IMG/VR virus record: IMGVR_UViG_3300042937_000502
Coordinates: 1 to 20,709 of that record
Strand: one strand, 5' to 3'
DNA: 20,709 nt
From: a virus
Shown here: piece after piece, positions 1,792 to 19,673 of the stretch
Numbering within the stretch: the stretch's first letter is position 1
Layout: each line of letters opens with the position of its first letter
Program-made: the position numbers and the translations under genes
The notes under the pieces: model-generated
What the model was told of the DNA's origin: nothing
The model's database searches: none
Seen by the model: only the letters and a program-made list of their open reading frames with translations

Positions 1792-1794
1792 AAA

Positions 1795-2172
1795 TCAATT
1801 CTCCTTGTAATAATACGCTGATGTTATTGCTGTTTTTCTGCGAAATGCTCCGCCAGCAAACAACGCTTTTGTGCCATCATATATACCAATGGCATTTTCA
1901 CACAATACAACATCACCAACATATATGGCATTATCTTTTCTTTTTACCAGACCAGCATCAGTCAATACTTTATGCCAGCCTCCTTTTGCTTCTATCAAAT
2001 CAAATGATGTTTTTTCGTCTGTGCATTTGTCAGCAAAATCTTTTAGAAAATCCTTCTTATACATAAACTGTAGCATCTTGCCAACAAAAAATCCGCAGTT
2101 GTTGTTCTTCCAATCAAACTCCTGCATATGCAGTTCTTGCAGTTTATGATAAAATGTGTTGTCTATATACAT
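1795..2172 (-). CDS. NlpC/P60-like tail-tip protein (DUF6950 type)
   Basis: The product has 125 residues if the ATG at 2170-2172 is used. An in-frame TTG three bases upstream is less likely, because the strong AGGAGG lies 6 bases before the ATG but only 3 before the TTG. The motif FDWKNNNCGFFVGKMLQF has a Cys (C26) at the position of the NlpC/P60 nucleophile, and IYVGDVVL resembles the second conserved block of DUF6950-type phage proteins. The histidine usually found after that block is absent; the sequence reads CENAIGIYDGTKALF. Genes of this type sit between the hub protein and the J-like protein in many siphophages and are thought to help the tip through the cell wall. Here catalysis is uncertain and the role may be structural. 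The start shares one base (TGATG) with the upstream stop, which implies translational coupling. Confidence 0.75.
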   Translation of the reverse strand: MYIDNTFYHKLQELHMQEFDWKNNNCGFFVGKMLQFMYKKDFLKDFADKCTDEKTSFDLIEAKGGWHKVLTDAGLVKRKDNAIYVGDVVLCENAIGIYDGTKALFAGGAFRRKTAITSAYYYKEN

Positions 2173-2816
2173 CAACTACCTCCTATGTTTGTGCCGTCGC
2201 CACCATCGCCATTATCACCACCGCCAGTATTGGCTGAACTACCCGGAGCACTTGTGCCCCAATAAATGCTTTTGTCTGCCATAGAACTTACAAACTCAAG
2301 TCCTTTATCACCCGGCGATATGATTTGCTGTGCTTCGTCGGTATATCTTATATCCTTTTGTCTATTCAGGTCAATCAGCCTATTTTCGCATTTTATAACG
2401 ATGCTGCTCAAGTCCTTGGCTTCTTGTATGGTCATCTGGTCCATTCTGCCACGAAACAATGTTACTTGTTCATACGCAGTCATACCAGTATTGTATAAAA
2501 TAAGATATACTGCTACTTCACGACCTCTATAGTTGTTGCTAAGAGCAAGGCTTACATATTCTGTAGGTATTCCGCTAAGTGTAAGGTCCATTCCTTTGGC
2601 TGCTACTTCAGTTGCTTCTGTAACGGTGGATATTGTGCCCAGAGTTCCTACTCCATTATATGTTCCATTGCCAAAATCATCATTGAACGCTTGATTATGC
2701 GTGCCGGTCCATAATCTAACAGCACTGCCGCTAAAGTCCATATATGCAGCCAAATATGGCTGAATAAGGCTTACAGAACTACTAACATATGTTGTGGATA
2801 TTCCGCTTCTGCTCAT
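2172..2816 (-). CDS. Distal tail / baseplate-hub protein, DUF2163-like
   Basis: A 214-residue protein. The motif YTDEAQQIISPGDKGLEFV followed by SSMADKSIYWG (about residues 158-187) matches the PGDxGxEFV signature of DUF2163-like proteins found just before NlpC/P60 genes in siphophage and gene-transfer-agent tail clusters. The N-terminus carries a mixed beta-type sequence (LAAYMDFSGSAVRLWTG). The last 25 residues are Gly/Asp/Asn-rich (GGGDNGDGGDG), probably a flexible tail, and they also encode the Shine-Dalgarno of the next gene. The start overlaps the preceding stop by 4 bases (ATGA). It most likely belongs to the hub or distal ring under the tape measure. The family name is from memory of its signature. 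Confidence 0.75.
   Translation of the reverse strand: MSRSGISTTYVSSSVSLIQPYLAAYMDFSGSAVRLWTGTHNQAFNDDFGNGTYNGVGTLGTISTVTEATEVAAKGMDLTLSGIPTEYVSLALSNNYRGREVAVYLILYNTGMTAYEQVTLFRGRMDQMTIQEAKDLSSIVIKCENRLIDLNRQKDIRYTDEAQQIISPGDKGLEFVSSMADKSIYWGTSAPGSSANTGGGDNGDGGDGTNIGGS
2179..2184 (-). promoter_or_regulatory. Strong Shine-Dalgarno AGGAGG
   Basis: A perfect AGGAGG lies 6 bases upstream of the ATG at 2172, inside the last Gly codons of the preceding gene. It decides the start of the NlpC-like gene. It stands out because most genes here have no recognisable Shine-Dalgarno sequence. Confidence 0.8.
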
Positions 2817-3358
2817 ATTGCTTCAACCATTGGTATTGTTACGCTGGTCAGCATAAACTCATCAACACTATATGTTATATCGCTATTGACCAGTCGCATT
2901 CTTACACCAGATGTTGTATTGATGGTATATGCTGTGCTTGGGCTTAGTTTTGGAAACAATGATGTAGCAGTTGTAAATTGTACCAGCCTGTTGCTTGTAT
3001 TATCATAGCCAAACTTGCCTACTTGTACGGTGCCACTGCCCACAGTAAAATCATTGCCTGTTGCTGTAGTTGTTATACCAACATTGGCTGATATAAGAAA
3101 CTTGCTTGGGATCTTGAATGTAAATGTGCCTACATTGCCAGCAAGGGCATTTAGAAAGCCAGTCATTTCTTCAGCATCACTTTGGAATAATGGAGCCAAT
3201 GTTACATTTAGTTCCCACCACTGACCACCATAACGATATATCTGCGTCTTGCCAGTAAATGGCGACTGGAACTGCGTGACCAATGTTCTGGTTGTAAATT
3301 CTATATTTCTTGGCTGTAGCCTTTTATTTGTTGGATATGTTAGTGGATATGTTGGCAT
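2813..3358 (-). CDS. Distal tail protein (beta-rich, minor tail)
   Basis: A 181-residue protein just downstream of the tape measure gene. The N-terminal half (RNIEFTTRTLVTQFQSPFTG, then YGGQWWELNVTLAPL and MTGFLNALAGNVGTFTF) has the pattern of small phage tail proteins that follow the tape measure and precede a DUF2163-like gene. The remainder is Thr/Val-rich and looks beta-structured. Position and sequence suggest a distal tail or first tip-ring component. The leader is A/T-rich with no Shine-Dalgarno; the start is the first ATG after the tape-measure stop. The specific family is not certain. Confidence 0.65.
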   Translation of the reverse strand: MPTYPLTYPTNKRLQPRNIEFTTRTLVTQFQSPFTGKTQIYRYGGQWWELNVTLAPLFQSDAEEMTGFLNALAGNVGTFTFKIPSKFLISANVGITTTATGNDFTVGSGTVQVGKFGYDNTSNRLVQFTTATSLFPKLSPSTAYTINTTSGVRMRLVNSDITYSVDEFMLTSVTIPMVEAI

Positions 3359-6430: not shown

Positions 6431-6670
6431 TTATTCTTTCTTTTTTTGTTCATCCTGAAACTTGCGGTATAAACCATCATATTTTATCAGAAACATCTTT
6501 ATACGATTTTCTTCTTGGCGAATATGATGCATAGTCAGTATATACTTGGCTCGCTGCTCTTCTGTCCATTCAGCACCATATCTTGGATGATTTTTACCAG
6601 TATATTTTTTACGCGACAAACTTATCTTGCGTTTGGTCTCCTCGCTATGCTTTTTACCTGTAAAACTCAT
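6431..6670 (-). CDS. Stand-alone NUMOD3-type DNA-binding protein (homing endonuclease remnant?)
   Basis: A 79-residue basic protein. The motif GKKHSEETKRKISLS (about 5-19) followed by GKNHPRYG (25-32) is characteristic of NUMOD3, a DNA-binding module normally attached to GIY-YIG or HNH homing endonucleases. No nuclease motif is present: no GIY, no HNH pair, and the rest is a short Lys/Arg-rich helix. It lies between the major tail protein terminator and the chaperone genes, only 3 bases before the chaperone start, so it is transcribed with the tail genes. It may be the DNA-binding end of a decayed homing endonuclease, or a small regulator derived from one. The domain call is fairly firm; the role is unknown. 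Confidence 0.7.
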   Translation of the reverse strand: MSFTGKKHSEETKRKISLSRKKYTGKNHPRYGAEWTEEQRAKYILTMHHIRQEENRIKMFLIKYDGLYRKFQDEQKKKE

Positions 6671-6780: not shown

Positions 6781-7206
6781 TTATGGGTTGAAATTGACTG
6801 CTCCAGATAGGCGAACCGAGACGTTTGCGGTCAAGATGCCTTGGGATGGGTCATCAGCAGTAATGCTGAATTCAGTAAAGGAACCAGTGAAGTTCCAGTC
6901 AGTTGCATCACTAAAGGTAATCTTGAAGATATCGTTGCCAGCTGTGTTGTTGGCGGACTGAGATACGATATATTGATGCACAGCGTTTGCTGGATTATAT
7001 TGTAGGCCGAAGGTCAATATACCAGTATCAGTTAGTGCTGCTGGTTTGTATTCCTTGGCAACGCTTTCCATCGTGGTAATATCAATTTCAGGACGGGTAA
7101 AGTTAGGACCACCAACATTGGTGACACCTGAGATTAGTGTTGGTACTCCAGCAGAACTGGTTGCTACTGCGAGTGTTGTTTTGCTATAGATTGCTGGCGA
7201 TGGCAT
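6781..7206 (-). CDS. Major tail (tube) protein
   Basis: A 141-residue protein. The segment NVGGPNFTRPEIDITTMESV followed by AKEYKPAALTDTGILTFGLQ and YNPAN is typical of lambda gpV-like tube proteins (EIDVTTxxSxAKEY pattern). The C-terminal half is beta-rich (DWNFTGSFTEFSITADDP). It polymerises around the tape measure to build the tail tube. It is flanked by its own terminator and has a good Shine-Dalgarno (AAGGAT), both fitting high expression. The gene uses more C-ending codons than its neighbours, as the capsid gene does. The gene upstream on the same strand is almost 1.2 kb away, separated by plus-strand genes and a terminator, so it needs its own promoter. Confidence 0.9.
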   Translation of the reverse strand: MPSPAIYSKTTLAVATSSAGVPTLISGVTNVGGPNFTRPEIDITTMESVAKEYKPAALTDTGILTFGLQYNPANAVHQYIVSQSANNTAGNDIFKITFSDATDWNFTGSFTEFSITADDPSQGILTANVSVRLSGAVNFNP

Positions 7207-7513: not shown

Positions 7514-8116
7514 ATGACAAACAAAGTAGAACGCCCAGAGGGCACATTATCGGACTCCTATAAACGCTATGCTCCATATATCAAGCAGTGGAGAAGCAAT
7601 AACAAGGATTATGTAAAGCAATATAATCGGGAATATCAACGCAAGATGCGTAAAGACCCGATAAAGTATGGTGAAGCAAGAATGCGTATAGCACTGAGAG
7701 CATATCTTCTTGGATACTGGAAATATAGTGCGATGGTAGTAAGCAGCCTTGGTATGACAAAAGAGCAGTTTTTTGTGAATATGAATACCACTGAAGAAGA
7801 GTTCAAGAAACTGCTAAAGACGCACGAGATTGACCATATTGTGCCAGCCAGTTGGTTCAATAAGCCAGAGAACAAACACCTAAAGCCATTCGCATACAAA
7901 TACTATAACATCCAGATAGTAGAAAAGAAAAGCAACAGAAACAAGCATTGCTGGATAGATGAAAATGAGATACGCACCAAATGCGTAATAAGTCGTATGA
8001 AACTGGATTATATGTATATGAACACAGATTACTCAGAAGATAGTGCCAAGAAGATGAAAGCATTATCGCTTGAGATAAATCATTTATTACGACAAATAAA
8101 AAAACAGAAAAAGTAA
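7514..8116 (+). CDS. Free-standing HNH endonuclease (homing-type)
   Basis: A 200-residue basic protein on the strand opposite to the structural genes. The HNH signature is complete: HEIDHIVPASWF (H104, D107, H108), then YYNIQIVEKKSNRNKH (N132, N141, K144, H145). The N-terminal 70 residues are Lys/Arg/Tyr-rich and probably bind DNA, and the C-terminus is helical and ends in a Lys tract. It cuts DNA using a single metal ion if it behaves like its family; the target is unknown, probably nearby phage DNA. It sits between two terminators, has an operator-like dyad in front and no Shine-Dalgarno, which fits a tightly limited mobile cassette inserted into the structural block beside the major tail protein gene. 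Confidence 0.9.
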   Translation: MTNKVERPEGTLSDSYKRYAPYIKQWRSNNKDYVKQYNREYQRKMRKDPIKYGEARMRIALRAYLLGYWKYSAMVVSSLGMTKEQFFVNMNTTEEEFKKLLKTHEIDHIVPASWFNKPENKHLKPFAYKYYNIQIVEKKSNRNKHCWIDENEIRTKCVISRMKLDYMYMNTDYSEDSAKKMKALSLEINHLLRQIKKQKK

Positions 8117-8122
8117 AGTAAT

Positions 8123-8152
8123 AAAAAGCCCACCTGCTCGGTGGGCTTTTTT
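8123..8152. terminator. Bidirectional terminator after the HNH gene
   Basis: A symmetric stem GCCCACC/GGTGGGC (8128-8134 with 8140-8146), a 5-base loop, with T tracts on both strands (six on plus, five on minus). It ends the HNH transcript and can also stop minus-strand transcription coming from the appendage genes. Confidence 0.9.
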
Positions 8153-8156
8153 GTTT

Positions 8157-8164
8157 ATACTTAT
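8157..8164 (+). promoter_or_regulatory. ATACTTAT motif before the 78-residue gene
   Basis: The octamer lies 5 bases before the ATG at 8170 on the coding strand. If it acts as a -10 element the message would be nearly leaderless. Same motif as at 5870, 7250 and 11348. Confidence 0.3.
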
Positions 8165-8169
8165 CTAAT

Positions 8170-8406
8170 ATGCTTACAGAACATCCTGATGACGATAATG
8201 ACGATATAAAGTTTTATGCGGTTACAGTAATATTCAGCAGATTTTCTATGTCTAAAAAACAGATAATAAATCTTGCTATAGAATGTTTTGCTTCAGAATA
8301 TGAGCTAAAGAAAGACAAGATTATTATATATTTTGATACAGATACATATGCTCATACGTTCATAAAGTTTATGAACGATTATCTAAAGAAGAAGAAGAAC
8401 GTATAA
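8170..8406 (+). CDS. Small acidic/basic hypothetical protein
   Basis: A 78-residue protein not recognised. It begins with an Asp-rich stretch (EHPDDDNDDI), has an alpha/beta-like core (AVTVIFSRFSMSKKQIINLA, then KIIIYFDTDTYAHTF) and ends in a Lys-rich tail (YLKKKKNV). No signal peptide or membrane segment is visible. It follows the HNH gene on the same strand but after a terminator, so it is not simply co-transcribed with it. Its 3' end overlaps the converging minus-strand gene by 38 bases. Coding status is likely but not certain given its size. Confidence 0.55.
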   Translation: MLTEHPDDDNDDIKFYAVTVIFSRFSMSKKQIINLAIECFASEYELKKDKIIIYFDTDTYAHTFIKFMNDYLKKKKNV

Positions 8407-9139
8407 TACTATATCCGTTTATTGTATCCAGATTATTTATCAGTGCCACTCTTAGCGTCTGGTGGCTTACACCAATATTTTTACCAGTTTCACGCAATGT
8501 TTCATAATATATCTCTTCATCACCTTTCTTGAATAATAGATTGGTATGAAAAAACTCATCATTGCGTTTGCCACTAAAATATTCTTCCCAACTAAGGCCA
8601 TCTATTCTTTTGCCTTTATAGCACCAATGCTTTATTTCTACACCCTGCCTGAACATAGCAGATATAAGGCTTTCTGAGATGTTTATTTTGGCGGATAAAT
8701 CTTTTCTACGCTGTGCTAATGGTATTTCCTGACCATTTATTGTATTGATTATATATTGGTTCTGCATACGCTGCCACCAAGTTAGATTGCCATCGCAACG
8801 CATAGGATGTACAACCTTCTTCCATTTTCTGCGATGTGTATCAATAATATCGCCATAATCACTTCTTCTGGCACAGTTGAACTTATCTGCTAATATTTTT
8901 AGTTGCTCAAGTTTTTCATTTCTAAAGCCAATAGGCTCCATTGTCTTTTCTTCCACAGATACATTATCATCCCTGCTGATACACATATAATAAATGCCAC
9001 CACCAAATAATATATGAGCAGTAGAGTTTCCTGCTTTTATTGTTTCTATATAGTTGTAATGTTCTACGGCATCTTTTTTGATGCGTAGTACTACAGGTAT
9101 ATAAACCTTCTCGTATCTTGGACCATCAGCATATTTCAT
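8369..9139 (-). CDS. Homing-associated DNA-binding protein with two NUMOD1/IENR-like repeats
   Basis: A 256-residue protein. The C-terminal segment YETLRETGKNIGVSHQTLRV followed by INGYSII (about 211-245) has the pattern of NUMOD1/IENR helix-turn-helix repeats, which give sequence-specific binding to homing endonucleases. A second, weaker copy is RRKDLSAKINISESLISAMF plus HWCYKGKRI (about 144-179). The N-terminal 130 residues, with VYIPVVLRIKKDAVEHYNY and CDGNLTWWQRMQNQY, show no GIY-YIG, HNH or LAGLIDADG motif that I can see. It may carry an unrecognised nuclease domain, be an AP2-like or degenerate homing protein, or act as a repressor. It lies at the end of the appendage genes beside an HNH gene, which supports a mobile origin. 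Confidence 0.6.
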   Translation of the reverse strand: MKYADGPRYEKVYIPVVLRIKKDAVEHYNYIETIKAGNSTAHILFGGGIYYMCISRDDNVSVEEKTMEPIGFRNEKLEQLKILADKFNCARRSDYGDIIDTHRRKWKKVVHPMRCDGNLTWWQRMQNQYIINTINGQEIPLAQRRKDLSAKINISESLISAMFRQGVEIKHWCYKGKRIDGLSWEEYFSGKRNDEFFHTNLLFKKGDEEIYYETLRETGKNIGVSHQTLRVALINNLDTINGYSIIRSSSSLDNRS

Positions 9140-9182
9140 ATTGATATATATGATTGCCGATTTGTAAAGTAGTTTTTATATT

Positions 9183-9428
9183 TTACCCTATTGGTGGAGG
9201 AAATGGTACTATAGAAGCAGAATATACTGTATCAAACTCTTCTTTTGGTATTTCTACCGCATTATATTCTTTTAGTATATCAAGGGTTTCTATGTCTGCG
9301 GCACCATAATAAATGTATGGAGGGTCGCTGACAACATATCCAGTTTGACTATTTTCTGGTAAAATAGCATCTGGTCCTATTGCCTCGCCAAGCGATATTG
9401 GCTTTAGATTGTATGTAAAATATTTCAT
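9183..9428 (-). CDS. 81-residue hypothetical protein in the appendage module
   Basis: Not recognised. It overlaps the upstream gene by 4 bases (ATGA), a sign of translational coupling and of real coding. The sequence contains SDPPYIYYGAADIETLDILK and a Pro-rich end (VPFPPPIG), with a short central helix. There are no signal or membrane segments. The tight link to the coiled-coil gene suggests the products work together, possibly in assembly of the adjacent fibres; this is inference. Confidence 0.6.
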   Translation of the reverse strand: MKYFTYNLKPISLGEAIGPDAILPENSQTGYVVSDPPYIYYGAADIETLDILKEYNAVEIPKEEFDTVYSASIVPFPPPIG

Positions 9429-9970
9429 TCTGGTAGTTCTGGTTTTTTGTGCTGTTCTATAAATGCTATGGCTGGATTATCTATGGCTTTTGATTGCCAT
9501 AATGCGTCAAGATTGCCTACACCTATTCTGCCGTGAGCAAGTATTTCTTCCTGCGATTGTCTTGCTAAACGCAACTGCCAATATTCTTCTTCACCAGATT
9601 GTATCTGTTCGTATGTATATTTTGGCATATCACTGAATAAACGATATAATACATTCCATTCACGCACTTGATTTTCCAATCCTAACTCCATCTCTTCCAA
9701 ATCAATGCCTAATAGTTCTTTTTCATCAGCATCTGTTGTTGCTGATATTTTCTTTAGTAGTTTTCTTTTTTCCACCATTTGACGGCGTAAGTTGAACGTG
9801 CGAACCTGAAGTTCCAATACACATTGAGAATACTGTCTTGGTTCAGTATCGTGCTGTCCAACAACAAAGTGTTGTATTTGATAGTTGCTGCGTGCTTGAT
9901 TGATGGCGTGAAACGCAGCTTCTAACTCGGTTCTTTTTTCTCCTACAATTGTGTTTATTTGATAGTCCAT
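9425..9970 (-). CDS. Coiled-coil protein of the appendage module
   Basis: A 181-residue protein with no recognised family. Residues about 55-120 are long, charged and heptad-like (VRTFNLRRQMVEKRKLLKKI, then DEKELLGIDLEEMELGLENQ), predicting a coiled coil. N-terminal SNYQIQHFVVGQHDTEPRQY and C-terminal GVGNLDALWQSKAIDNPAI look like conserved phage patterns rather than low complexity. It lies 9 bases after the Kelch-like gene and overlaps the next gene. I suspect a fibre-associated structural or assembly protein; the sequence alone does not prove that. Confidence 0.65.
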   Translation of the reverse strand: MDYQINTIVGEKRTELEAAFHAINQARSNYQIQHFVVGQHDTEPRQYSQCVLELQVRTFNLRRQMVEKRKLLKKISATTDADEKELLGIDLEEMELGLENQVREWNVLYRLFSDMPKYTYEQIQSGEEEYWQLRLARQSQEEILAHGRIGVGNLDALWQSKAIDNPAIAFIEQHKKPELPE

Positions 9971-9979
9971 AGTAAAATA

Positions 9980-10960
9980 TTAGCAAAAACCCATTGATTG
10001 TGCTTTTGCTACGGTTTTGTTCATAGCCGATATTGTTGAAGCGGTTTCACTGGAAAAAGGAAACTTATATGCAGTTGTAACCTGACCACCGGAAGATCCA
10101 CCTAAAGTATATCCAGTGGCTGAACTGCTCATACCAGAAGATTGTTCAACGCTATTGGTGCTTACTGTTGATGATGTATCTGTTGCATAAGTTACCTTTG
10201 CCCAAGTAGTCAAAGCACTGCTTGCAGCCAAAAACCCTTTTGTAGATATAGGACCGTTGATGCTACCAAAATTTCCATATGCTTTTGCTGCCGGTAATAC
10301 CAAAGAAGCATTGTTTGCACTTGTTTCTGTGCTAAATGGCATCTTATCCACAAGTGTTCGCCCAACAAATCCACTTGTAAATCCACCTAGATAAATTGCC
10401 GCACTATCCGAACTTACTGTCATTCCACTGTCTCTTCCAGTGGATAAATTTGCACTGGTGAGTGCTGCGGTTGTATCGTTGCTGTATGGTGTTTTGTATG
10501 CTTCTACTTTATTCAGTGATCCGCCAGGATTACTGCCACCATAACTATAAATTGCACTAGTATATACAGCAGCCATAATACCTGATCTTGCTAATGGTAA
10601 TGCAGCAGATGCGTTACTGGCCATTGTATCGTTGCTGTGTGTTAGTTTATTGGCACTGGTTTGCGGATTACCTGTGGTATCATATCCTCCAATACAATAT
10701 GCTATTGTGTTGTTGCCACCACTTGCTCCTTGTGCTCTAGGCCCTGACAAGTTGGCGGAAGTTTGCGCAGACGTTGTTTCACTTGAAAAGGTGGCCTTGT
10801 CGGCTGTTGTAACAGGACCAGAAGTTCCACCAACGCTAAATCCCTTGCTGTCTGTGCCATACCAAGTAGGTGCTGCTGCCGGTGGCCCCATTGGATTGAC
10901 ACTTCTTAGTGATAATCCAAGTTTATATGCTAGTCGTTGATATTTTGTGCTTCGTAGCAT
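9980..10960 (-). CDS. Kelch-like beta-propeller protein, candidate receptor-binding protein
   Basis: A 326-residue protein with a short N-terminal anchor (MLRSTKYQRLAYKLGLSLRS) and a linker rich in Pro/Ala. Six repeats of about 46-51 residues start near 40, 87, 136, 187, 237 and 283. Each has a GG or GF-containing strand (GFSVGG, AYCIGG, IYSYGG, IYLGG, GYTLGG), a K-x(2)-FS/YS-(T/N)-(E/D)T motif and a Ser/Ala-rich strand ending in a basic residue. This is the layout of Kelch/galactose-oxidase-like propellers used by phages and bacteria to bind glycans or proteins. Repeat 5 is the most divergent. The gene carries three of the eight GATC sites of the whole window, hinting at a different history. 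No signal peptide is present, as expected for a virion protein. Confidence 0.75.
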   Translation of the reverse strand: MLRSTKYQRLAYKLGLSLRSVNPMGPPAAAPTWYGTDSKGFSVGGTSGPVTTADKATFSSETTSAQTSANLSGPRAQGASGGNNTIAYCIGGYDTTGNPQTSANKLTHSNDTMASNASAALPLARSGIMAAVYTSAIYSYGGSNPGGSLNKVEAYKTPYSNDTTAALTSANLSTGRDSGMTVSSDSAAIYLGGFTSGFVGRTLVDKMPFSTETSANNASLVLPAAKAYGNFGSINGPISTKGFLAASSALTTWAKVTYATDTSSTVSTNSVEQSSGMSSSATGYTLGGSSGGQVTTAYKFPFSSETASTISAMNKTVAKAQSMGFC

Positions 10961-10963
10961 ATA

Positions 10964-11332
10964 TTATATCTGTTCTCTACCATATAATACAACATTGATA
11001 GATGCTGTTTGCGAGCATTTCATTGTTATTTTTTCATTATGAGAGCCAGTTACACTATTCAGTACAAATGGAACTTTTGGTGATATTTCAAGCACAGAAG
11101 AACCGCTGATGCCTTCACTCAATCTTTGTAAAGAAAATGAAGCACTGAAACTTGCTGTAGGAACAGTGGCAGTAAATGGAAAATACATTTGCACAGATTG
11201 AACCGTGTTTGTATAGTTGTAAAACCACATCGTGGCTATTTCAGCCGATTTGCTTGTGGGTGCCGTATATACAATACTTTCCGTAGCGTGTAGTATTTGA
11301 CTTGCTAGTTGTTTTATATCTGTGTATGCCAT
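10964..11332 (-). CDS. Small beta-type appendage protein
   Basis: A 122-residue protein, not assigned to a named family. It has alternating hydrophobic strands (ESIVYTAPTSKSAEIATMWF, SVQMYFPFTATV, INVVLYG) and a segment SSVLEISPKVPFVLNSVTGS, giving the look of a beta-sandwich. Similar small proteins often sit beside phage fibre genes, and here it is between two fibre-like genes, 3 bases before the Kelch-like gene. It has a Shine-Dalgarno (AAGGAT) 4 bases before the ATG, which is rare in this window and suggests higher expression. It could be a fibre cap or connector; that is inference. Confidence 0.6.
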   Translation of the reverse strand: MAYTDIKQLASQILHATESIVYTAPTSKSAEIATMWFYNYTNTVQSVQMYFPFTATVPTASFSASFSLQRLSEGISGSSVLEISPKVPFVLNSVTGSHNEKITMKCSQTASINVVLYGREQI

Positions 11333-11378: not shown

Positions 11379-12317
11379 TTATGGTCCGCTTATTTTTTGT
11401 ATAAAAATAGAACCAGAACCACCCGTACCACCATTTGAGCCGGCACCAAGCCCAAATCCACCAGAACCTCCATTTGCTCGCACTATGCCATTGTTTGTAT
11501 ATGAACCAGCATAAAATAGTGATATAGTTCCTCCTCCGCCTCCGCCGCCTCCACCAATACTGCTTGGAGGATTAGTTCCTTCTGTTCCATTATCTCCATC
11601 TGCTATTATTTGACCTGTATTTGTTATAATAAGATTACCACCGACTATCATAACAATATTTCCTCCACCATTGCCACCATTATCTCTATAGTTTCCATTT
11701 ATGGCACTTCCTCTACCACCTTTGCCTCCTCCACTATATTTTCCAGCCACACCAGCATTTGCTGGATATAAACTATCATAATAACCTCCTCCACCTCCTC
11801 CTCCGCAAGAAGTTGATGAAGCATTTCCATTTCCAACAACACCGGGACTACTTCCTGCTGCTCCTGCCGCACCACCATTTACTGTTATAACTCTTTTGTC
11901 TCCTTTTGTTGCCCATATATATCTTTGATTTGCTTCAGCATTTATCGCATCTGTTCCAAGTCCAAGCATAATGCTGCTTGATGCTTGCTCTGAGCCGCTG
12001 ATAGGGTCTATTCTATATATTTCTATATTGTTGCTGCCTGTTCCTACATATGACCTTCCTTTCATACTTATAGAACCGCTGACAATACAATCTCCTTGAC
12101 AATATATAATCAAACCAGAACAGGCTGCATTTGGTCCAATACCAAATGCTTCACCAAGGTTCATAGATGTAAAGTTCAATACTTTAGCATCACCAAAAGC
12201 ATTTGGAGTCCAACCTGAACCAGTTATACATATACCATCCGAACCATTACCAAAATAGTTCTTTGGAGTAAATGTTATTCTTTCACGAGAATATCTTCTT
12301 ATTGCTGTAGAAAACAT
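11379..12317 (-). CDS. Glycine-rich fibre/adhesin-like protein
   Basis: A 312-residue protein. After a beta-rich N-terminal region (about 1-145) come glycine-rich blocks: CGGGGGGGYYD near 168, GGGKGGRGSAINGN near 193, and a nine-Gly run near 258. Between them are strand-turn units such as GNLIITNTGQIIADGDNGTEG split over residues 228-248, and TNNGIVRANGGSGGFG. This alternation of Gly-rich loops and I-x-G-x-I strands resembles beta-helix or polyglycine-II type adhesin domains of phage fibres. It starts 3 bases after the 1489-residue fibre stop, without a Shine-Dalgarno, so it belongs to the same transcript. It probably forms part of a surface-binding appendage. The fold is an inference. Confidence 0.65.
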   Translation of the reverse strand: MFSTAIRRYSRERITFTPKNYFGNGSDGICITGSGWTPNAFGDAKVLNFTSMNLGEAFGIGPNAACSGLIIYCQGDCIVSGSISMKGRSYVGTGSNNIEIYRIDPISGSEQASSSIMLGLGTDAINAEANQRYIWATKGDKRVITVNGGAAGAAGSSPGVVGNGNASSTSCGGGGGGGYYDSLYPANAGVAGKYSGGGKGGRGSAINGNYRDNGGNGGGNIVMIVGGNLIITNTGQIIADGDNGTEGTNPPSSIGGGGGGGGGTISLFYAGSYTNNGIVRANGGSGGFGLGAGSNGGTGGSGSIFIQKISGP

Positions 12318-12320
12318 ATT

Positions 12321-15300
12321 TTATATTCCGGTATAAGACCATATAGTATCCATATCCATAGTTACTACAGGAATATTTAGAGCATAACTTGATGTTGCTG
12401 AAAAACTGGAAGATACAGCATAACTGGATGTTATAGCATAACTTGATGAGATAGAACCACTTATAGTTCCATTTACAAATAACGAACCTGATATGCGAAC
12501 ACTTCCTGTGGCAAGAATATCACCAATAAATGTATGTAAATCATTGGCATTATCTCCAAAGATATTGCTGCCAGAAGCATACATATAACTTGCTGTAATG
12601 CTTGTGAGTAATGCGTTGCTTGATGTAACTTGACCAAACGTTACATTATTTGCTGTTGTAAATGCTTCACCGCCACCATTGCTCAACTGGAACGAACTGC
12701 TTATTGTTCCGCCGCCTCCACCACCTCCACCAGCAGCATTTAGTGCATATGAAGCAGTAAGTGCCATATTAGCATAACTTGCTGTGCCTTCTAATGAACC
12801 AGTTATTGAGCCACCAGTTACAACCAAGTTTCCAACAATATCAACTCCTGCTGGCTTTATGCTGAGTATGTTTGTATATGGTTGAGAAGAGACCTTGAAT
12901 ATATGTCCGGTATATACAGTATCATCTACTTCATAATAAAAGCCGCTGGGATCAGCATTGCCTATACTTGTTTGGCGAGTATTTGATGAGTCCCACCAAG
13001 TTAGTGTTGGTTTATTGCTATTTCCCTCAAAGATTACTTTTTCTCCATTTATACCAGTAAATGCTACACTATTATATGAATTCTGGATAGTTAGAACAAG
13101 GTCAGTAGATGGAAGGCTCTTGATTGTGCCGACTGTAATTTCATTACTACGCAATGAACCAGTGATTGACTCTATTTCTGCTGATGAACCACTTATTACA
13201 CCAGATAATCTTGTTCGTATAGTATTAGTACTACCAATAACTGTTTCATATGCTGAAGCACTGGCATAACCACCTATGGCGATTGACTCTTCTCCAGTTG
13301 CGGTTGCATAGTCGCCTATAGATATTTGAGTATTATCTGCTGCACTAACTTTGCTACCTCGTCCTATTGCTATATTGAGTTGGCCAGTAAATAATCCAAG
13401 ATTTTGTGAATTATCTGTGCCAATGAATATATTATCATTTCCTCCAGCAGTTGCTAAAGTGCTTCCAGACAAAGCATTTTGACCTATTACAATATTTCTC
13501 AAGCCATTATTTTGGAATGGCATTGGTCCTATTTGTACAGTTCCTCCAGAAACATCTTCACCAGAAGGAATATAAAGATTTCTTCCAGTTATAGAACCGC
13601 TGACATATAAATCATTTGTATAAATGCCATTTGATGCTGTAAGTTGTGTTACTTCATTGCTGTTTATCCACAATGAACCACTTTTTACAATTATTTGACC
13701 ATCTACTGGAGATACTATTCTAACATCGTGCAGTTCATCCAGTTCATATCCATTCTGTATTAGAGTGAATATACTACCATTACCAGCACCTACTCTTGTT
13801 ACTATACCGGCATATACAAGATGTATTGGTGCTTGTGGCTTTACGTTTGTCAGTTGTCCAGAAGATGTAGATACATAAAGAAGATCACCAGCATTATACA
13901 TTGATGTATTTATGTCTTTTACTAATCCGCGAGTGCTTACATATCCACTTTGAGCAGAACCGATGCTTTCAGCCACAATGCCAAGTGTGCGTGCGGATGT
14001 AGCATCTGATGTTGCTGCTGCTCTTTTGACTGCTATTCTGTCGGTGGCTGAACCAGAAGCATATACAACTTCACCTTTATTTAGCGTGGTTGCTTCAGCA
14101 TTATATACATATGCTATTTCCTCAAAGCCGATTGGAAGATTTACATTTCCTCCAAGCAATCCAAGTTTCAGCGTTCCAAGGTCGCTGTTCCAAGTAAGTT
14201 GTGCCACAGCATCTGTAGCATTTACTGTTTGAGCAAACTGGATATAAGAACTGCTTGCATCACCCAGCAAATAACTTGCGGTTGTTGCTGTGCCACCACT
14301 ACCACCATTTAGGGCATAACTTGCGGTGATGGCATAACTTGCTGTACCAGCAAACTGGCTGGTATTTGTTATACCCGTAATATTATTCCAATCTATGCTG
14401 GTTGGAGTTGTGCCACTTGTTCCGCTTGTGCCGCTGCTGCCATTGGCTCCATTTGCTCCGCTGGTGCCACTACTTCCACTTGTTCCATTTTGACCAGATG
14501 TTCCGCTTGAACCATTTTGACCAGATGTTCCAGATGTACCATTTACACCACTGGTGCCACTTGAGCCAGTAAGACCACTGGTTCCACTGCTGCCACTTGA
14601 ACCACTGGTGCCACTTGAACCACTGGTGCCACTTTCACCTGATGTGCCACTGCTGCCATTCTGACCACTGGTTCCACTACTTCCATTTTCTCCACTTGTG
14701 CCAGATGTGCCATTTACACCACTGGTACCACTTGAGCCAGTAAGACCACTGCTGCCACTAGTTCCACTTGAACCAGACGTTCCGCTTTCTCCAGAAGTTC
14801 CACTAGAACCATTTTGACCAGATGTACCGCTACTTCCATTTTGTCCGCTCGTTCCACTGCTTCCATTTTGGCCTGATGTTCCAGATGAGCCATTTACACC
14901 ACTGGTGCCACTTGAGCCACTAAGACCGCTGGTTCCGCTTGAACCACTGGTTCCACTTTCACCTGAAGTTCCACTTGAACCATTTTGACCACTGGTTCCA
15001 CTGCTTCCACTTGAACCACTTGTGCCACTTGAGCCAGATGTTCCACTGCTTCCGCTGGTTCCGCTGGTTCCACTACTACCATTTTGACCACTGGTTCCAC
15101 TTGAACCATTAGCACCGGATGTTCCGCTGCTTCCACTTGAGCCGCTGGTTCCACTTGAGCCAGCAGCACCAACTGCTCCGTTGAGGTTTGTCTGCCAAAC
15201 ACTGTATGTTCCAGAACCAGAACTTGCGTATATAACAACACTCAAATCTCCTGTAGATGGATTATAAGACGATATAGTTCCATCCATCCAGTTACTTAGA

Positions 15301-16790
15301 TCATATACTATAGTAATATCTTGTGTTATAGTATATGCTAATCCAGTTTCTACAACTAAGTTTATTGTTCCAGAACCTGTGATTGCTAAAGTTGTGGTTG
15401 AGTTACCGTTATATATGCTTCCATTTAGGCCGCTGGTGCCACTTGTGCCACTGGTTCCATTTTGTCCACTTGTTCCAGATGAACCACTAGTTCCACTTGT
15501 TCCGCTGCTGCCGCTTGAACCGTCTTCTCCGCTGGTTCCGCTACTGCCACTGCTGCCACTGGTTCCTGATGTGCCAGAAGAACCACTGCTTCCACTTGAC
15601 CCACTGCTTCCGCTGGTGCCACTTGTGCCGCTGCTACCATTTTGACCACTGGTTCCGCTGCTGCCATCTGTTCCGCTTGTGCCACTAGTTCCACTTGAAC
15701 CTGCTGTGCCACTGGTTCCACTGGTGCCACTTGTACCAGATGTGCCACTATAACTTAGTGCAAAAGATGCTGTAAGAGCCTGTAAAGCATAACTCGCAGT
15801 TCCTTGTAGGCTTCCTGTAACTCCACCATTAGCAACAAGAGGACCAGATACGGTCAAACTTCCTGTAACAAATGATACACTGCTTGTTACTATCTCTACA
15901 TTCAATACCTGAACTTGTATTGCTGATGCGGTGATTTGTCCAAAAGTAACATTGTTTGTGTTATTGAAAGCAAAGCCACCATTATTGCTCAACTGTTGCG
16001 AACTTGTTATAGTACCACCACTGCGTGCATAACTGGCACTATTGGCAAAACTAGCATAACTGGCTGTTCCGTTTAGAATGCCTTCTACATAACTTGCTGT
16101 TAGAGCATTGAACGCCCAAGAAGATGTAGCAGGTAATCCAGTTACATATGATGCGGTTAGTGCTTGTAAAGCATAACTGGCTGTGCCTGTAACCAATCCT
16201 TCTACATAACTGGCTGTCTTGGCATAACTGGCTGAAATAGCATTATCAACTACAAATCCACCAGCAACTATCAAACTTCCACTTACGGTAACATTGCCTA
16301 CAAAATCTACATTGCTGCCAGTAATGGTCATTACGTTACTGCCAGTAAGAATATATCTGTCTTTCCATATTGCTACTTGATTTGCTGTGCCTGCTCCAAT
16401 AACAGGCTGAACATATTCTATGTCAGCATTCCAAGTAACGGTAAATGATATTTGACGGCTGTATATACCAGTTATAATATCAAACTCATCTACGCTGCTG
16501 TCTAAAACTATTTGTATTTCACTATCATATCCATTCAGTAATGATATGATAAATGTACGCATCTCTTCTGCTTTTTCTATTGTCTGGGCCTTGCAATCAA
16601 ATGTAACCGTTTCATATCTTACACTTGGTCCATCCATCGTTTGTGTTCCGATGGTGTTGTCACGACTAAATACAACGCAAGGCAATTCTACGTTCTGGTT
16701 CTCAAACGTGCTTTCACTATAAACAGGAACCTGTAGATTATTATGAATTAGGCTGCGTAAGTTGTTATAATATTCTGTTATTCCTGCCAT
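12321..16790 (-). CDS. Giant fibre with an N-terminal tail-completion (DUF3168-like) domain and collagen-like repeats
   Basis: A 1489-residue protein. Residues 1-125 are a clear paralogue of the adjacent tail completion protein: both share VPVYxEST, QNVxLP, VVFSR or IVFSR, MDG, KAxTIEK and the FDI...IYxR ending. Residues about 180-250 carry TASYA/SASYA repeats. Gly-X-Y blocks lie at about 345-456 and 538-795, separated by a beta-type insert of about 80 residues. Next are TASYA repeats, a domain with FEEIAYVYNAEATTLNKGEV ending in NGYELDELHDV (about 890-1020), and YadA-like SIAIGG repeats (about 1095-1185). A further TASYA-rich end closes with MDMDTIWSYTGI. The N-terminal domain should dock at the head-tail junction, making this a candidate neck fibre. 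There is no obvious chaperone domain. The duplication and fusion are seen directly; the location in the virion is inferred. Confidence 0.85.
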   Translation of the reverse strand: MAGITEYYNNLRSLIHNNLQVPVYSESTFENQNVELPCVVFSRDNTIGTQTMDGPSVRYETVTFDCKAQTIEKAEEMRTFIISLLNGYDSEIQIVLDSSVDEFDIITGIYSRQISFTVTWNADIEYVQPVIGAGTANQVAIWKDRYILTGSNVMTITGSNVDFVGNVTVSGSLIVAGGFVVDNAISASYAKTASYVEGLVTGTASYALQALTASYVTGLPATSSWAFNALTASYVEGILNGTASYASFANSASYARSGGTITSSQQLSNNGGFAFNNTNNVTFGQITASAIQVQVLNVEIVTSSVSFVTGSLTVSGPLVANGGVTGSLQGTASYALQALTASFALSYSGTSGTSGTSGTSGTAGSSGTSGTSGTDGSSGTSGQNGSSGTSGTSGSSGSSGSSGSSGTSGTSGSSGSSGTSGEDGSSGSSGTSGTSGSSGTSGQNGTSGTSGTSGLNGSIYNGNSTTTLAITGSGTINLVVETGLAYTITQDITIVYDLSNWMDGTISSYNPSTGDLSVVIYASSGSGTYSVWQTNLNGAVGAAGSSGTSGSSGSSGTSGANGSSGTSGQNGSSGTSGTSGSSGTSGSSGTSGSSGSSGTSGQNGSSGTSGESGTSGSSGTSGLSGSSGTSGVNGSSGTSGQNGSSGTSGQNGSSGTSGQNGSSGTSGESGTSGSSGTSGSSGLTGSSGTSGVNGTSGTSGENGSSGTSGQNGSSGTSGESGTSGSSGTSGSSGSSGTSGLTGSSGTSGVNGTSGTSGQNGSSGTSGQNGTSGSSGTSGANGANGSSGTSGTSGTTPTSIDWNNITGITNTSQFAGTASYAITASYALNGGSGGTATTASYLLGDASSSYIQFAQTVNATDAVAQLTWNSDLGTLKLGLLGGNVNLPIGFEEIAYVYNAEATTLNKGEVVYASGSATDRIAVKRAAATSDATSARTLGIVAESIGSAQSGYVSTRGLVKDINTSMYNAGDLLYVSTSSGQLTNVKPQAPIHLVYAGIVTRVGAGNGSIFTLIQNGYELDELHDVRIVSPVDGQIIVKSGSLWINSNEVTQLTASNGIYTNDLYVSGSITGRNLYIPSGEDVSGGTVQIGPMPFQNNGLRNIVIGQNALSGSTLATAGGNDNIFIGTDNSQNLGLFTGQLNIAIGRGSKVSAADNTQISIGDYATATGEESIAIGGYASASAYETVIGSTNTIRTRLSGVISGSSAEIESITGSLRSNEITVGTIKSLPSTDLVLTIQNSYNSVAFTGINGEKVIFEGNSNKPTLTWWDSSNTRQTSIGNADPSGFYYEVDDTVYTGHIFKVSSQPYTNILSIKPAGVDIVGNLVVTGGSITGSLEGTASYANMALTASYALNAAGGGGGGGGTISSSFQLSNGGGEAFTTANNVTFGQVTSSNALLTSITASYMYASGSNIFGDNANDLHTFIGDILATGSVRISGSLFVNGTISGSISSSYAITSSYAVSSSFSATSSYALNIPVVTMDMDTIWSYTGI
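14408..15178 (-). repeat. Collagen-like Gly-X-Y block II of the giant fibre
   Basis: About 250 residues of uninterrupted Gly-X-Y-type triplets, mainly GTS, GSS, GQN, GES, GVN, GEN and GLT. There are no prolines. Codons for the same triplets vary, so the block is not a recent slippage product throughout. Confidence 0.9.
14539..15069 (-). repeat. Three tandem 171-180-base super-repeats inside block II
   Basis: A nearly identical stretch, encoding GLTGSSGTSGVNG or GLSGSSGTSGVNG, begins at 14539, 14710 and 14890 on the plus strand. The spacing is 171 and 180 bases, that is 19 and 20 triplets, which indicates segmental duplication of 57-60 residue units. The end of the third copy is approximate. 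Confidence 0.7.
15423..15750 (-). repeat. Collagen-like Gly-X-Y block I of the giant fibre
   Basis: About 110 residues of GTS/GSS/GTA/GQN/GED/GLN triplets, again without proline, between the first TASYA region and the globular insert. Confidence 0.9.
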
Positions 16791-16799
16791 ATGATTATT

Positions 16800-17156
16800 T
16801 TATTTGTAGATTACATTGAACACTATATCCCTATTATAAATAGCGGTGTTTATATCAAAATCGTTTGTTTCGGATGCTAATGCCATTTGATAATCATACG
16901 CATCTAATAGTGCTAAAAGAAAGTCGCGTATTTCTTCTACCTTTTCTATAGTTTTTGCTTTTATGCTAAAAACAACACTATCAAAATATGGACCAGAGCC
17001 ATCCATTATTTGACTGCTGCTAGTTGATATTCTGCTAAAAACAATGGCAGGCAGGCTTACATTTTGGTCTTGATATGTGCTTTCTGTATATACAGGCACT
17101 TCTAGTTGCTGATATACAAGTTCTCTTATAAAATCGTATGAGCCAGATGGGTTCAT
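16800..17156 (-). CDS. Tail completion / tail terminator-type protein (DUF3168, gp17-like)
   Basis: A 118-residue protein. IRELVYQQLEVPVYTES, LPAIVFSRI, VVFSIKAKTIEKVEEIRDFL and a C-terminal beta-strand NRDIVFNVIYK match DUF3168-type proteins, which close the head-proximal end of the tail and join it to the head. It follows the gp10-like gene with a 4-base overlap (ATGA), the usual place for this function. Nine bases after its stop begins the giant fibre whose first 125 residues are homologous to the whole of this protein (about 40-45 % identity by eye). It keeps the normal length for the family and is presumably the authentic structural copy. Confidence 0.85.
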   Translation of the reverse strand: MNPSGSYDFIRELVYQQLEVPVYTESTYQDQNVSLPAIVFSRISTSSSQIMDGSGPYFDSVVFSIKAKTIEKVEEIRDFLLALLDAYDYQMALASETNDFDINTAIYNRDIVFNVIYK

Positions 17157-17581
17157 TTTGTATATTTCTTTAGCCTTGACTCTAGTGCTTTTACAAACTT
17201 GTCAGTTAGTATTTGTGCATTATTCTGCATCGCATCTTCCATAAACTTATATCTTGGCTCTAATACATTAGCATAACGCCAAGGTACTCTTGGTCTGCCA
17301 TTTCTATCTGTTCCTCGCACATTTTTACTAACACCTGTGATAATCACTACAGTGCCATCTTTTTCGTATATAAGTTTTTTTCTTTTGATGCTGCTTTGTA
17401 ATAAGCCTGTATCTACTAAGCCATTGCTTTGTATGTTTCCTATCGCCGCATCAACAACTATTTTATTAGCACTATATGCCGCACTTACAATACTGCGTGC
17501 AGCAAACTCTTGACTTATACTTTGTAGTTTTTTGTCAAGTTCCTGTAGTCCTTTGATTTGTATTGATACAGCATCGGCCAT
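17153..17581 (-). CDS. HK97 gp10-like head-tail joining protein
   Basis: A 142-residue protein. The N-terminal helix IKGLQELDKKLQSISQEFAA and the segment NGLVDTGLLQSSIKRKK (L/V-DTG-L-L-x-SI) are hallmarks of HK97 gp10-family proteins. The motif PWRYANVLEPRYKFMEDAM near the C-terminus is also typical. It acts at the neck or in tail completion. Its start shares a base with the preceding stop (TAATG) and its stop overlaps the next start, so it lies in a tightly coupled cluster. Confidence 0.85.
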   Translation of the reverse strand: MADAVSIQIKGLQELDKKLQSISQEFAARSIVSAAYSANKIVVDAAIGNIQSNGLVDTGLLQSSIKRKKLIYEKDGTVVIITGVSKNVRGTDRNGRPRVPWRYANVLEPRYKFMEDAMQNNAQILTDKFVKALESRLKKYTK

Positions 17582-17895
17582 TAGTTTCTTCTTTCACCAG
17601 TGGCTTTGATATAACCATCATATACTAGTTCATCAACATATACGACGTTATACTTGTTTCCATCATATGTTATGTTGGCTTTTTCAGTAACATTAGCATT
17701 ATTACGCAGTGTAAAAATATATGTGGCTGTGTTGTATATATAGCCATTGTTTGTATTTTCGCCACCACCTTGTTTTTTTACATTGGCAAATAAAGATTGC
17801 GAAGCATAGTTCATTATGCTTTGACCAAATCTATCAACGCTGCTGCTGGTAGGATACTCCAGCATTATCTTTTCATCAAGTAAGCCGGGGTTCAT
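17581..17895 (-). CDS. Head-tail adaptor / head closure protein (SPP1 gp16-like)
   Basis: A 104-residue protein. The opening GLLDEKIMLEYPTSSSVDRF-GQ and the middle TATYIFTLRNN...ITYDGNKYNVVYVD follow the pattern of phage head-tail joining proteins (D-x-R-I/M-x-L, then R-x(n)-I-x-y-x-G-x-x-Y-x-I). It closes the portal channel after packaging. It starts 1 base after the connector stop, with no Shine-Dalgarno. Confidence 0.85.
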   Translation of the reverse strand: MNPGLLDEKIMLEYPTSSSVDRFGQSIMNYASQSLFANVKKQGGGENTNNGYIYNTATYIFTLRNNANVTEKANITYDGNKYNVVYVDELVYDGYIKATGERRN

Positions 17896-17896
17896 A

Positions 17897-18382
17897 TTAT
17901 TGTGGTTTTACAAGTTTGTATGGAGATAATAGAGCATCTACAGTATAGTTCAGCGGTGATGTAGATATACCGATTGCTTGTGGCAATCTATTTTCATACC
18001 AGTTATTGACCAGTATCATTTGTGCTATTCTTACATTAGTTGGTATGCTGCCGCTGTTTGCTACAGTAAATGTTATGTTGCCGCTAAAATATTCACCTTC
18101 TGGAATATAAGAATACCAACTTGCTGCTACTTCTTTTAGTGAGCCAGTAGATACAGTATTTACCGTTTGAGTGCTCAAAAATATATCACCACTGCTGCTC
18201 CATACATACATACTATGCGTACAAGCAGTAAAATCTCTATTACATTCCGCAGTTACTTGTTCATAACTGGCAGTAATAAGCGAACTAATCAACGTGTCAT
18301 CATCATTGAACTGAACACGTAAATAGTTTTTTGCTTCTGTTAGGGTAGGCCCGTAGTTTGATATATTTGTTCTGGTTCTCAT
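17897..18382 (-). CDS. Head-tail connector protein, HK97 gp6-like
   Basis: A 161-residue protein. The N-terminal TLTEAKNYLRVQFNDDDTLI followed by SSLITASYEQVTAECNRDF is the classic gp6-type opening. The C-terminal part has VRIAQMILVNNWYENR and VDALLSPYKLV, the standard ending of this family. It binds below the portal and links it to the adaptor. It is the first gene after the capsid terminator and has a promoter-like leader with two direct repeats. Confidence 0.9.
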   Translation of the reverse strand: MRTRTNISNYGPTLTEAKNYLRVQFNDDDTLISSLITASYEQVTAECNRDFTACTHSMYVWSSSGDIFLSTQTVNTVSTGSLKEVAASWYSYIPEGEYFSGNITFTVANSGSIPTNVRIAQMILVNNWYENRLPQAIGISTSPLNYTVDALLSPYKLVKPQ

Positions 18383-18491: not shown

Positions 18492-19673
18492 TTAGGCGAC
18501 GTTTGCGACCAACTTGACGAGCGAGTTGCCGTCAGTTAGAGCAGAGTCAAATCTCTTGTGTGCTCTCCAGCCGATATTGCCTTCAGCAGCATATAGTTCG
18601 TTGAGGCGTTGTAGCGAGTAGCCACCACGGTCACCGATTACGAAGTGCTGAGGATATAGCAATGCACCCATTACGCCAGTTGTGGACTGCCAAGTAGCAG
18701 GAGCGGCGTATGTAGTATATACTGGACGACCCAAGAATAGGTCTGGCTGACCAGCCTGAACGGAAACTTCCCACAGGTATGTACCAGCGGTAGAAGCCTT
18801 CAACTGACGCATCTGGGAAGCGAGACCATCGCCAACGATCCAGACGGCTTCCTGACGACGATTGCCTGGCATCTTGTAGTATGCAGCAATCATATTGTCC
18901 AGAAGAGCAGAACCTGTGCTTGAACCAAGGTTTTGGCTCAATGCAGCGTTTCCACCAGCAGTCGTGTAGCGGAGGATACCGCGTGGTTCATTTGTGCCTG
19001 AACCAGAGACGAATGCTTTTTCTTCCAAGTTGCCGAAGCCAATACCCATTTCAGCAGCGAGTGTGCTTTCCAAGTCGGTAGAAGCGTCCTGCAAGAGTTC
19101 TTCCGAGACCTTGATGAGGGCGGTAGCCTTATAAGCACCAAGTGTAGCAGAACTGAACGAAACGTCTGTTTCAGAGTATGAAGCAGATGGGTTCTGGTCC
19201 TTGAACACTGCGGTGACACCACTTCCAACGATTGGAAGAGTTGTGGTGCTGGTGGTCTGGATGGTGCGAGCACCAATACGACGCATTACAGAGTTCTGTA
19301 GAAGAGTGCGTTGAATGGTTTGCAGAAGAATGACAGGAACATTGACGCCACCTTCGCTGGTGCTGAAACTGTTCAACTGACGTAGTTCGTCGGTGTTGCC
19401 GGTGCGAACATATGTCAAGAAGGCTGAACGATATTCATCTTCACTTGGACCAGTTTTGCTGTTGATGGCACGCTTGTCTAGTACTTCACCCATCTTGCCG
19501 TTGATTGCGTCAAAGCGAACTTCGGCTTCAATCTGCTTGGTGAGTTTGTTGTATTCATTTTCCAAAGCGTCAAACTTTGCGTAGTCGCCTTCGGAACGTT
19601 TATCAGAGGCAATATCCATAATGTTTTTCATCTGGGAATATACCTCGTTGCGGGTTTTTAGTAGATTACTCAT
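18492..19673 (-). CDS. Major capsid protein, HK97 gp5 family
   Basis: A 393-residue protein. Residues about 1-70 are helical and charged (LLKTRNEVYSQMKNIMD, then FDALENEYNKLTKQIEAEVR), matching the delta/scaffold domain removed by the protease. The folded part starts near 76 (SEDEYRSAFLTYVRTG). Hallmarks of the HK97 fold follow: EGGVNVPVILLQTI, KVSEELLQDA and LEEKAFVSGSGTNEPRGIL (216-234). The end is HKRFDSALTDGNSLVKLV. It builds the icosahedral shell. It lies directly after the protease, has a Shine-Dalgarno and a strong terminator, and uses more C-ending codons than its neighbours, all in keeping with very high expression. I cannot tell whether it cross-links as HK97 does. Confidence 0.97.
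   Translation of the reverse strand: MSNLLKTRNEVYSQMKNIMDIASDKRSEGDYAKFDALENEYNKLTKQIEAEVRFDAINGKMGEVLDKRAINSKTGPSEDEYRSAFLTYVRTGNTDELRQLNSFSTSEGGVNVPVILLQTIQRTLLQNSVMRRIGARTIQTTSTTTLPIVGSGVTAVFKDQNPSASYSETDVSFSSATLGAYKATALIKVSEELLQDASTDLESTLAAEMGIGFGNLEEKAFVSGSGTNEPRGILRYTTAGGNAALSQNLGSSTGSALLDNMIAAYYKMPGNRRQEAVWIVGDGLASQMRQLKASTAGTYLWEVSVQAGQPDLFLGRPVYTTYAAPATWQSTTGVMGALLYPQHFVIGDRGGYSLQRLNELYAAEGNIGWRAHKRFDSALTDGNSLVKLVANVA

Follow-up and report, generated by a model that had tools for sequence, protein, structure and literature searches.

A tail-terminator domain fused to a collagen-like fibre suggests neck fibres in metagenomic siphophages

The window analysed here, a 20.7 kb (20,709 nucleotides) siphophage fragment from IMG/VR with its genes mostly on the - strand, encodes a protein of 1489 residues that is most likely a tail-terminator subunit continued at its C-terminus into a giant trimeric fibre, which would make this a siphophage with neck fibres. 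The genes are ordered as capsid protein, adaptor, stopper, gp10-like neck protein, short terminator, 1489-residue fusion, accessory genes, tail tube, tape measure (assigned from position and similarity) and a GTA/lambda-like tail tip (Table 1).

Table 1. Features of the window, with positions counted from its first letter.
Feature	Position	Strand	Evidence
Short tail terminator, 118 aa	16800-17156	-	47% identity with the fused domain; fold of a terminator, best VIA Z 14.1; phrog_347 E 0.005
Fused tail-terminator domain, residues 1-125 of the 1489-aa protein (12321-16790, -)	16416-16790	-	AlphaFold pLDDT 79.5; Foldseek/VIA matches; dN/dS 0.04-0.1
Linker/base of fibre, residues 126-348	15747-16415	-	Pairwise BLAST, 16 fused proteins
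Collagen-like block 1, residues 349-459, 37 Gly-X-Y triplets	15414-15746	-	Triplet count; Pfam Collagen
Collagen-like block 2, residues 538-795, 86 Gly-X-Y triplets	14406-15179	-	Triplet count; Pfam Collagen, best stretch 736-794
Post-collagen fibre domain, residues 840-1047	13650-14273	-	Common to fibres of unrelated phages with other N-terminal anchors
Distal tip, residues 1048-1489	12321-13649	-	41% identity to L004; YadA-head-like IAIG motifs, by eye
HK97-gp10-like neck/tail-completion protein, directly upstream of terminator	17153-17581	-	phrog_5 E 1.5e-10
Head completion/stopper protein	17581-17895	-	Pfam Phage_HCP E 5e-8
Head-tail adaptor	17897-18382	-	Phage_connect_1 E 4e-11; phrog_40 E 2.6e-18
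Major capsid protein	18492-19673	-	Phage_capsid E 4e-49
Major tail tube protein	6781-7206	-	Phage_TTP_11 E 7.5e-7; phrog_158

An earlier note on this DNA had described the short protein as duplicated, with the second copy running on into the fibre. Both reading frames are found on the - strand at the positions it gave, and the two copies are homologous, the short protein aligning with residues 8-121 of the long one over 114 residues (47% identity, 70% similarity, one 2-residue gap; BLASTP E 9e-39) and sharing with it the VPVY-x-EST, MDG and TIEK motifs. The long protein runs without a stop from the terminator domain into two Gly-X-Y blocks. Some 20 further contigs, drawn from many metagenomes, have the same junction, which is therefore not an artefact of assembly.

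The fold of the fused domain was examined in a single-chain AlphaFold model of moderate confidence (pLDDT 79.5, from 11 sequences), in which an N-terminal helix is followed by strands, a second long helix and a pair of long strands. Its VIA matches (Z 12.3 to 8, most of them spanning about 105-123 residues) are overwhelmingly tail terminators and include those of phiXacJX1, lambda (gpU), T5 (p142), GTA, Mu and NF5, the best (Z 12.3 to 11.4) being NF5, GTA, T5, lambda gpU and others. Likewise, nearly all Foldseek matches (E 5.7e-6 to 1e-3) were tail terminators, and the model of the short copy gave the same kind of list (VIA Z 14.1 to 11). The earlier note had staked its reading on a DUF3168/gp17-type fold in the N-terminal domain; the fused domain and the short copy both have the terminator fold in these models, and DUF3168 proteins are present among the matches. 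Sequence profiles were less sensitive, with a weak match of the short copy to phrog_347 tail terminator (E 0.005 only), no terminator profile match for the fused domain and no match of either to Pfam DUF3168 at its curated score. The label "tail completion protein" given to the short copy was a misnomer, as the tail completion/Neck1 family (phrog_5) is represented by the neighbouring gene at 17153-17581; judged by their predicted folds, both copies are tail terminators.

Scans of IMG/VR yielded some 20 contigs covering the region, in which the copies were counted by domain profile. The fusion is present in every relative whose contig reaches the terminator slot and continues past the neck genes, and the order MCP, adaptor, stopper, gp10-like protein and terminator domain is kept in all relatives reaching the region. 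In 12 contigs of seven lineages (L006, L009, L011/L012, L013/L014, L016/L017, L007 and L023) the short copy is absent and the fusion directly follows the gp10-like gene, starting about 20-30 bases past it. Two fusions are found in L007 (794 and 919 aa; 7557-9941 and 12135-14894), with L008 and L010 representing the same lineage on contigs that stop before the second, and in L023 (872 and 473 aa; 8001-10619 and 12395-13816), where the second has no collagen repeats; a hetero-ring bearing two fibre kinds is possible in such genomes. Apart from contigs that end at the short copy, no relative with the short copy only was seen in the IMG/VR scans, and no further terminator copy was found across the whole contigs G001-G003 (28.7-30.3 kb). 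Several lineages, as represented by incomplete contigs, have no recognisable terminator gene other than the fusion. A separate, non-homologous terminator gene in the fusion-only genomes is conceivable, given that incompleteness and several small genes without assignment, although a family search, itself weak for fast-evolving genes, found no other terminator among several of the genes that separate the fusion from the tail tube gene.

Neither copy has relatives among INPHARED phages or the 84,980 genomes of bacteria and archaea searched, and no capsid or terminase match to a known phage reaches 60% identity. The gene starts show no clear Shine-Dalgarno motif and have A/T-rich leaders, which hints at a Bacteroidota host.

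In a tree of the terminator domains, the four short copies group together (100/100) and are separated from 15 fused domains, forming one old paralogous clade. When mapped on the tree built from the capsid, adaptor, stopper and gp10-like proteins, the short copy must have appeared or disappeared at least three times, and these events may be gains or losses, as this tree has no outgroup; a plain terminator has been repeatedly lost or gained next to a fibre-bearing one. Furthermore, the fused domain is under strong purifying selection among relatives (dN/dS about 0.04-0.1 in pairs with unsaturated dS; 0.037 for L006/L009 and 0.046 for L013/L016, all without the short copy). Because the fused domain is kept everywhere, conserved, located in the terminator slot and often alone, it is best read as a functional terminator. 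The fusion is thus probably a working, often sole, terminator subunit, and its fibre would therefore be at the neck.

These data also bear on an unlikely alternative in which the ring consists of short copies only, the fused copy having a decayed terminator domain and docking outside the neck as a fibre adaptor. Genomes with both copies (the window, L004, L015, L024/L025 and L026) would allow it, short and fused copies being separate old clades that could have specialised, and the spikes of phage XM1 do dock outside terminator and stopper (PMC10457771). However, seven lineages without the short copy keep the fusion right in the terminator slot, and the fused domain is no less conserved there. 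Attachment at the tail tip, by a terminator-like domain binding a distal ring (terminators resemble tube domains), is very improbable: the tip is the site of most phage fibres and the T5 completion protein has been reported as distal (PMC11784142), but the nearest folds are head-proximal terminators, and the fusion gene lies in the neck cluster, apart from a separate set of tail-tip genes at 1-3358 that includes a gpJ-like protein. Least probable of all is a terminator domain freed from the fusion by recoding or proteolysis, leaving the fibre unattached, which would account for an ordinary ring in fusion-only phages, since the linker is conserved along with the domain to about residue 175 and no conserved slippery heptamer lies close to the junction in 12 genes; release through frameshifting was dropped on the latter ground.

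The fibre itself contains long Gly-X-Y runs, amounting to 123 triplets (369 residues) in two blocks (Pfam Collagen E 6.9e-51). Such repeats imply trimers and, taking the usual 0.286 nm rise per collagen residue, the two blocks would extend ~105 nm as a triple helix. Pairwise BLAST of 16 fused proteins showed that the conserved part of the linker is followed by TASYA-type repeats and that fibre modules are shuffled among relatives; the post-collagen domain also occurs in proteins of unrelated phages, on other anchors. Between the window and L004, identity is 98.8% over residues 1-347, 90.8% over residues 799-1047 and 41% in the tip, where IAIG motifs appear YadA-head-like by inspection only. 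L007 and L010 have collagen of 345 and 291 residues, respectively, between identical flanks. A conserved base, a fast-changing tip and collagen of variable length form the usual pattern of adhesins, and the fibre probably has such a role. A C-terminal motif like [VI]W-x-Y-[STA]-G-[ILF] is common to the window (about 12324-12365, -), L004, L007, L015 and L016; a short distance after it follows the 122-aa gene or another structural gene, and the motif is possibly a docking tail.

For the fusion as a terminator subunit we propose the following architecture, in which ring incorporation, neck position, fibre number and adhesin role are inferred. The terminator domain would form part of the hexamer that closes off the tail tube beneath the head, with the fibre leaving the ring outward. 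Among solved terminators with an outward C-terminus, XM1 gp5 joins the sheath (PMC10457771) and the C-terminus of the Milano terminator is likewise directed outward to the sheath (PMC10491603); a siphophage has no sheath, and a C-terminal extension should therefore be free outside the neck. Projection of the fibre from the neck, as first proposed, is supported by the terminator fold and by the relatives that have no recognisable terminator gene besides the fusion. If all six ring positions were occupied by fusions, the simplest arrangement of their six chains would be two collagen-type trimers; a ring with three of each copy would have the chains for one. In T5 the terminator hexamer, seated on a trimeric tube ring, has C3 pseudo-C6 symmetry (PMC11784142), and alternate ring positions can therefore differ. 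The mixed ring suggested in the earlier note is possible where the short copy is kept, in a minority of lineages, and does not apply to those with the fusion only. The conserved base would anchor the fibre and the collagen block (about 100 nm) would act as a spacer, while the variable tip would make probably reversible contact with the host surface, alongside the separate tail-tip apparatus. We give an even chance to a reading in which the terminator of at least seven lineages exists solely as a fibre fusion and every tail has a neck fibre that is built in and stoichiometric in an essential ring, its six chains forming two collagen trimers.

Known tail terminators (lambda gpU, T5 p142, SPP1 gp17 and GTA) have the same fold, domain size and gene position after the stopper and neck genes. 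Larger terminators of contractile tails have sheath-binding extensions or a duplicated domain, with no long fibre (PMC11784142). The matched siphophage terminators, at about 117-165 aa, are also without a long fibre, unlike the 1489-residue fusion.

The whiskers of T4 (fibritin, wac) are likewise trimeric neck fibres; fibritin is a coiled-coil fibre with an unrelated anchor, and the T4 terminator gp15 is a separate protein. The collar spikes of Vibrio phage XM1 (gp40) resemble the proposed fibre in being long trimeric neck appendages with three chains per spike that touch the terminator ring, but gp40 is a separate protein whose Ig-like anchor is docked on gp4/gp5, forming six trimers (PMC10457771). 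The lactococcal neck passage structure (936 phages, TP901-1) is similar as a siphophage neck fibre with variable distal host-binding modules, and as a decoration that is non-essential in TP901-1, the neck position being an inferred one in our case; it differs in its ring of BppU-like anchor domains round the portal/adaptor, with six trimers (PMC6669499, PMC10747895). Flexible neck fibres of about 100 nm, a length computed from sequence for the fusion, are also found on Anabaena phage A-1(L), which is a myophage with gp82 on a pentadecameric neck ring and five fibres of three proteins (PMC10966104). The anchor domain is not shared, being of terminator fold here and BppU-like (lactococcal), Ig-like (XM1) or pilus-like (A-1(L)) elsewhere, in agreement with the initial remark that T4 whiskers and lactococcal neck passage structures use unrelated proteins.

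Neck fibres are therefore already known on other anchors, and what is new, as far as we found, is a fibre anchored through a terminator domain. No report of a terminator-fibre fusion was present in the open-access literature (subscription papers mostly fall outside this coverage), in keeping with the earlier note, whose author was not aware of a description; a six-fold ring with two collagen trimers was not found described for any phage. The neck fibres known so far come from few phages and are, as far as found, always separate proteins docked on the neck, whereas here an essential ring and a fast-evolving adhesin would share one chain. The fusion shows a new route by which phages may gain host-contact devices, offers a sequence signature with which to predict neck fibres in metagenomic phages, and raises the question of how a six-fold ring feeds three-stranded fibres.

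Several other features of the region were observed. Insertions of about 0.6 kb lie between the adaptor and stopper genes at L023:6683-7311 and L033:5971-6627, with the stopper ORF shortened to 77 aa (L023) and 94 aa (L033); they are possibly a mobile element. Two ORFs amid the tail genes of the window may be mobile nuclease genes, namely a 200-aa opposite-strand ORF at 7514-8116 (+), whose only nuclease-domain match is below threshold (GmrSD_C E 0.033), and a 79-aa ORF at 6431-6670 (-) that resembles homing endonucleases (phrog_314, E 1.4e-5). Downstream of the fusion, a Kelch-like 326-aa protein (window 9980-10960, -) and a 122-aa protein (10964-11332, -) recur in many relatives and are probably further parts of the appendage.
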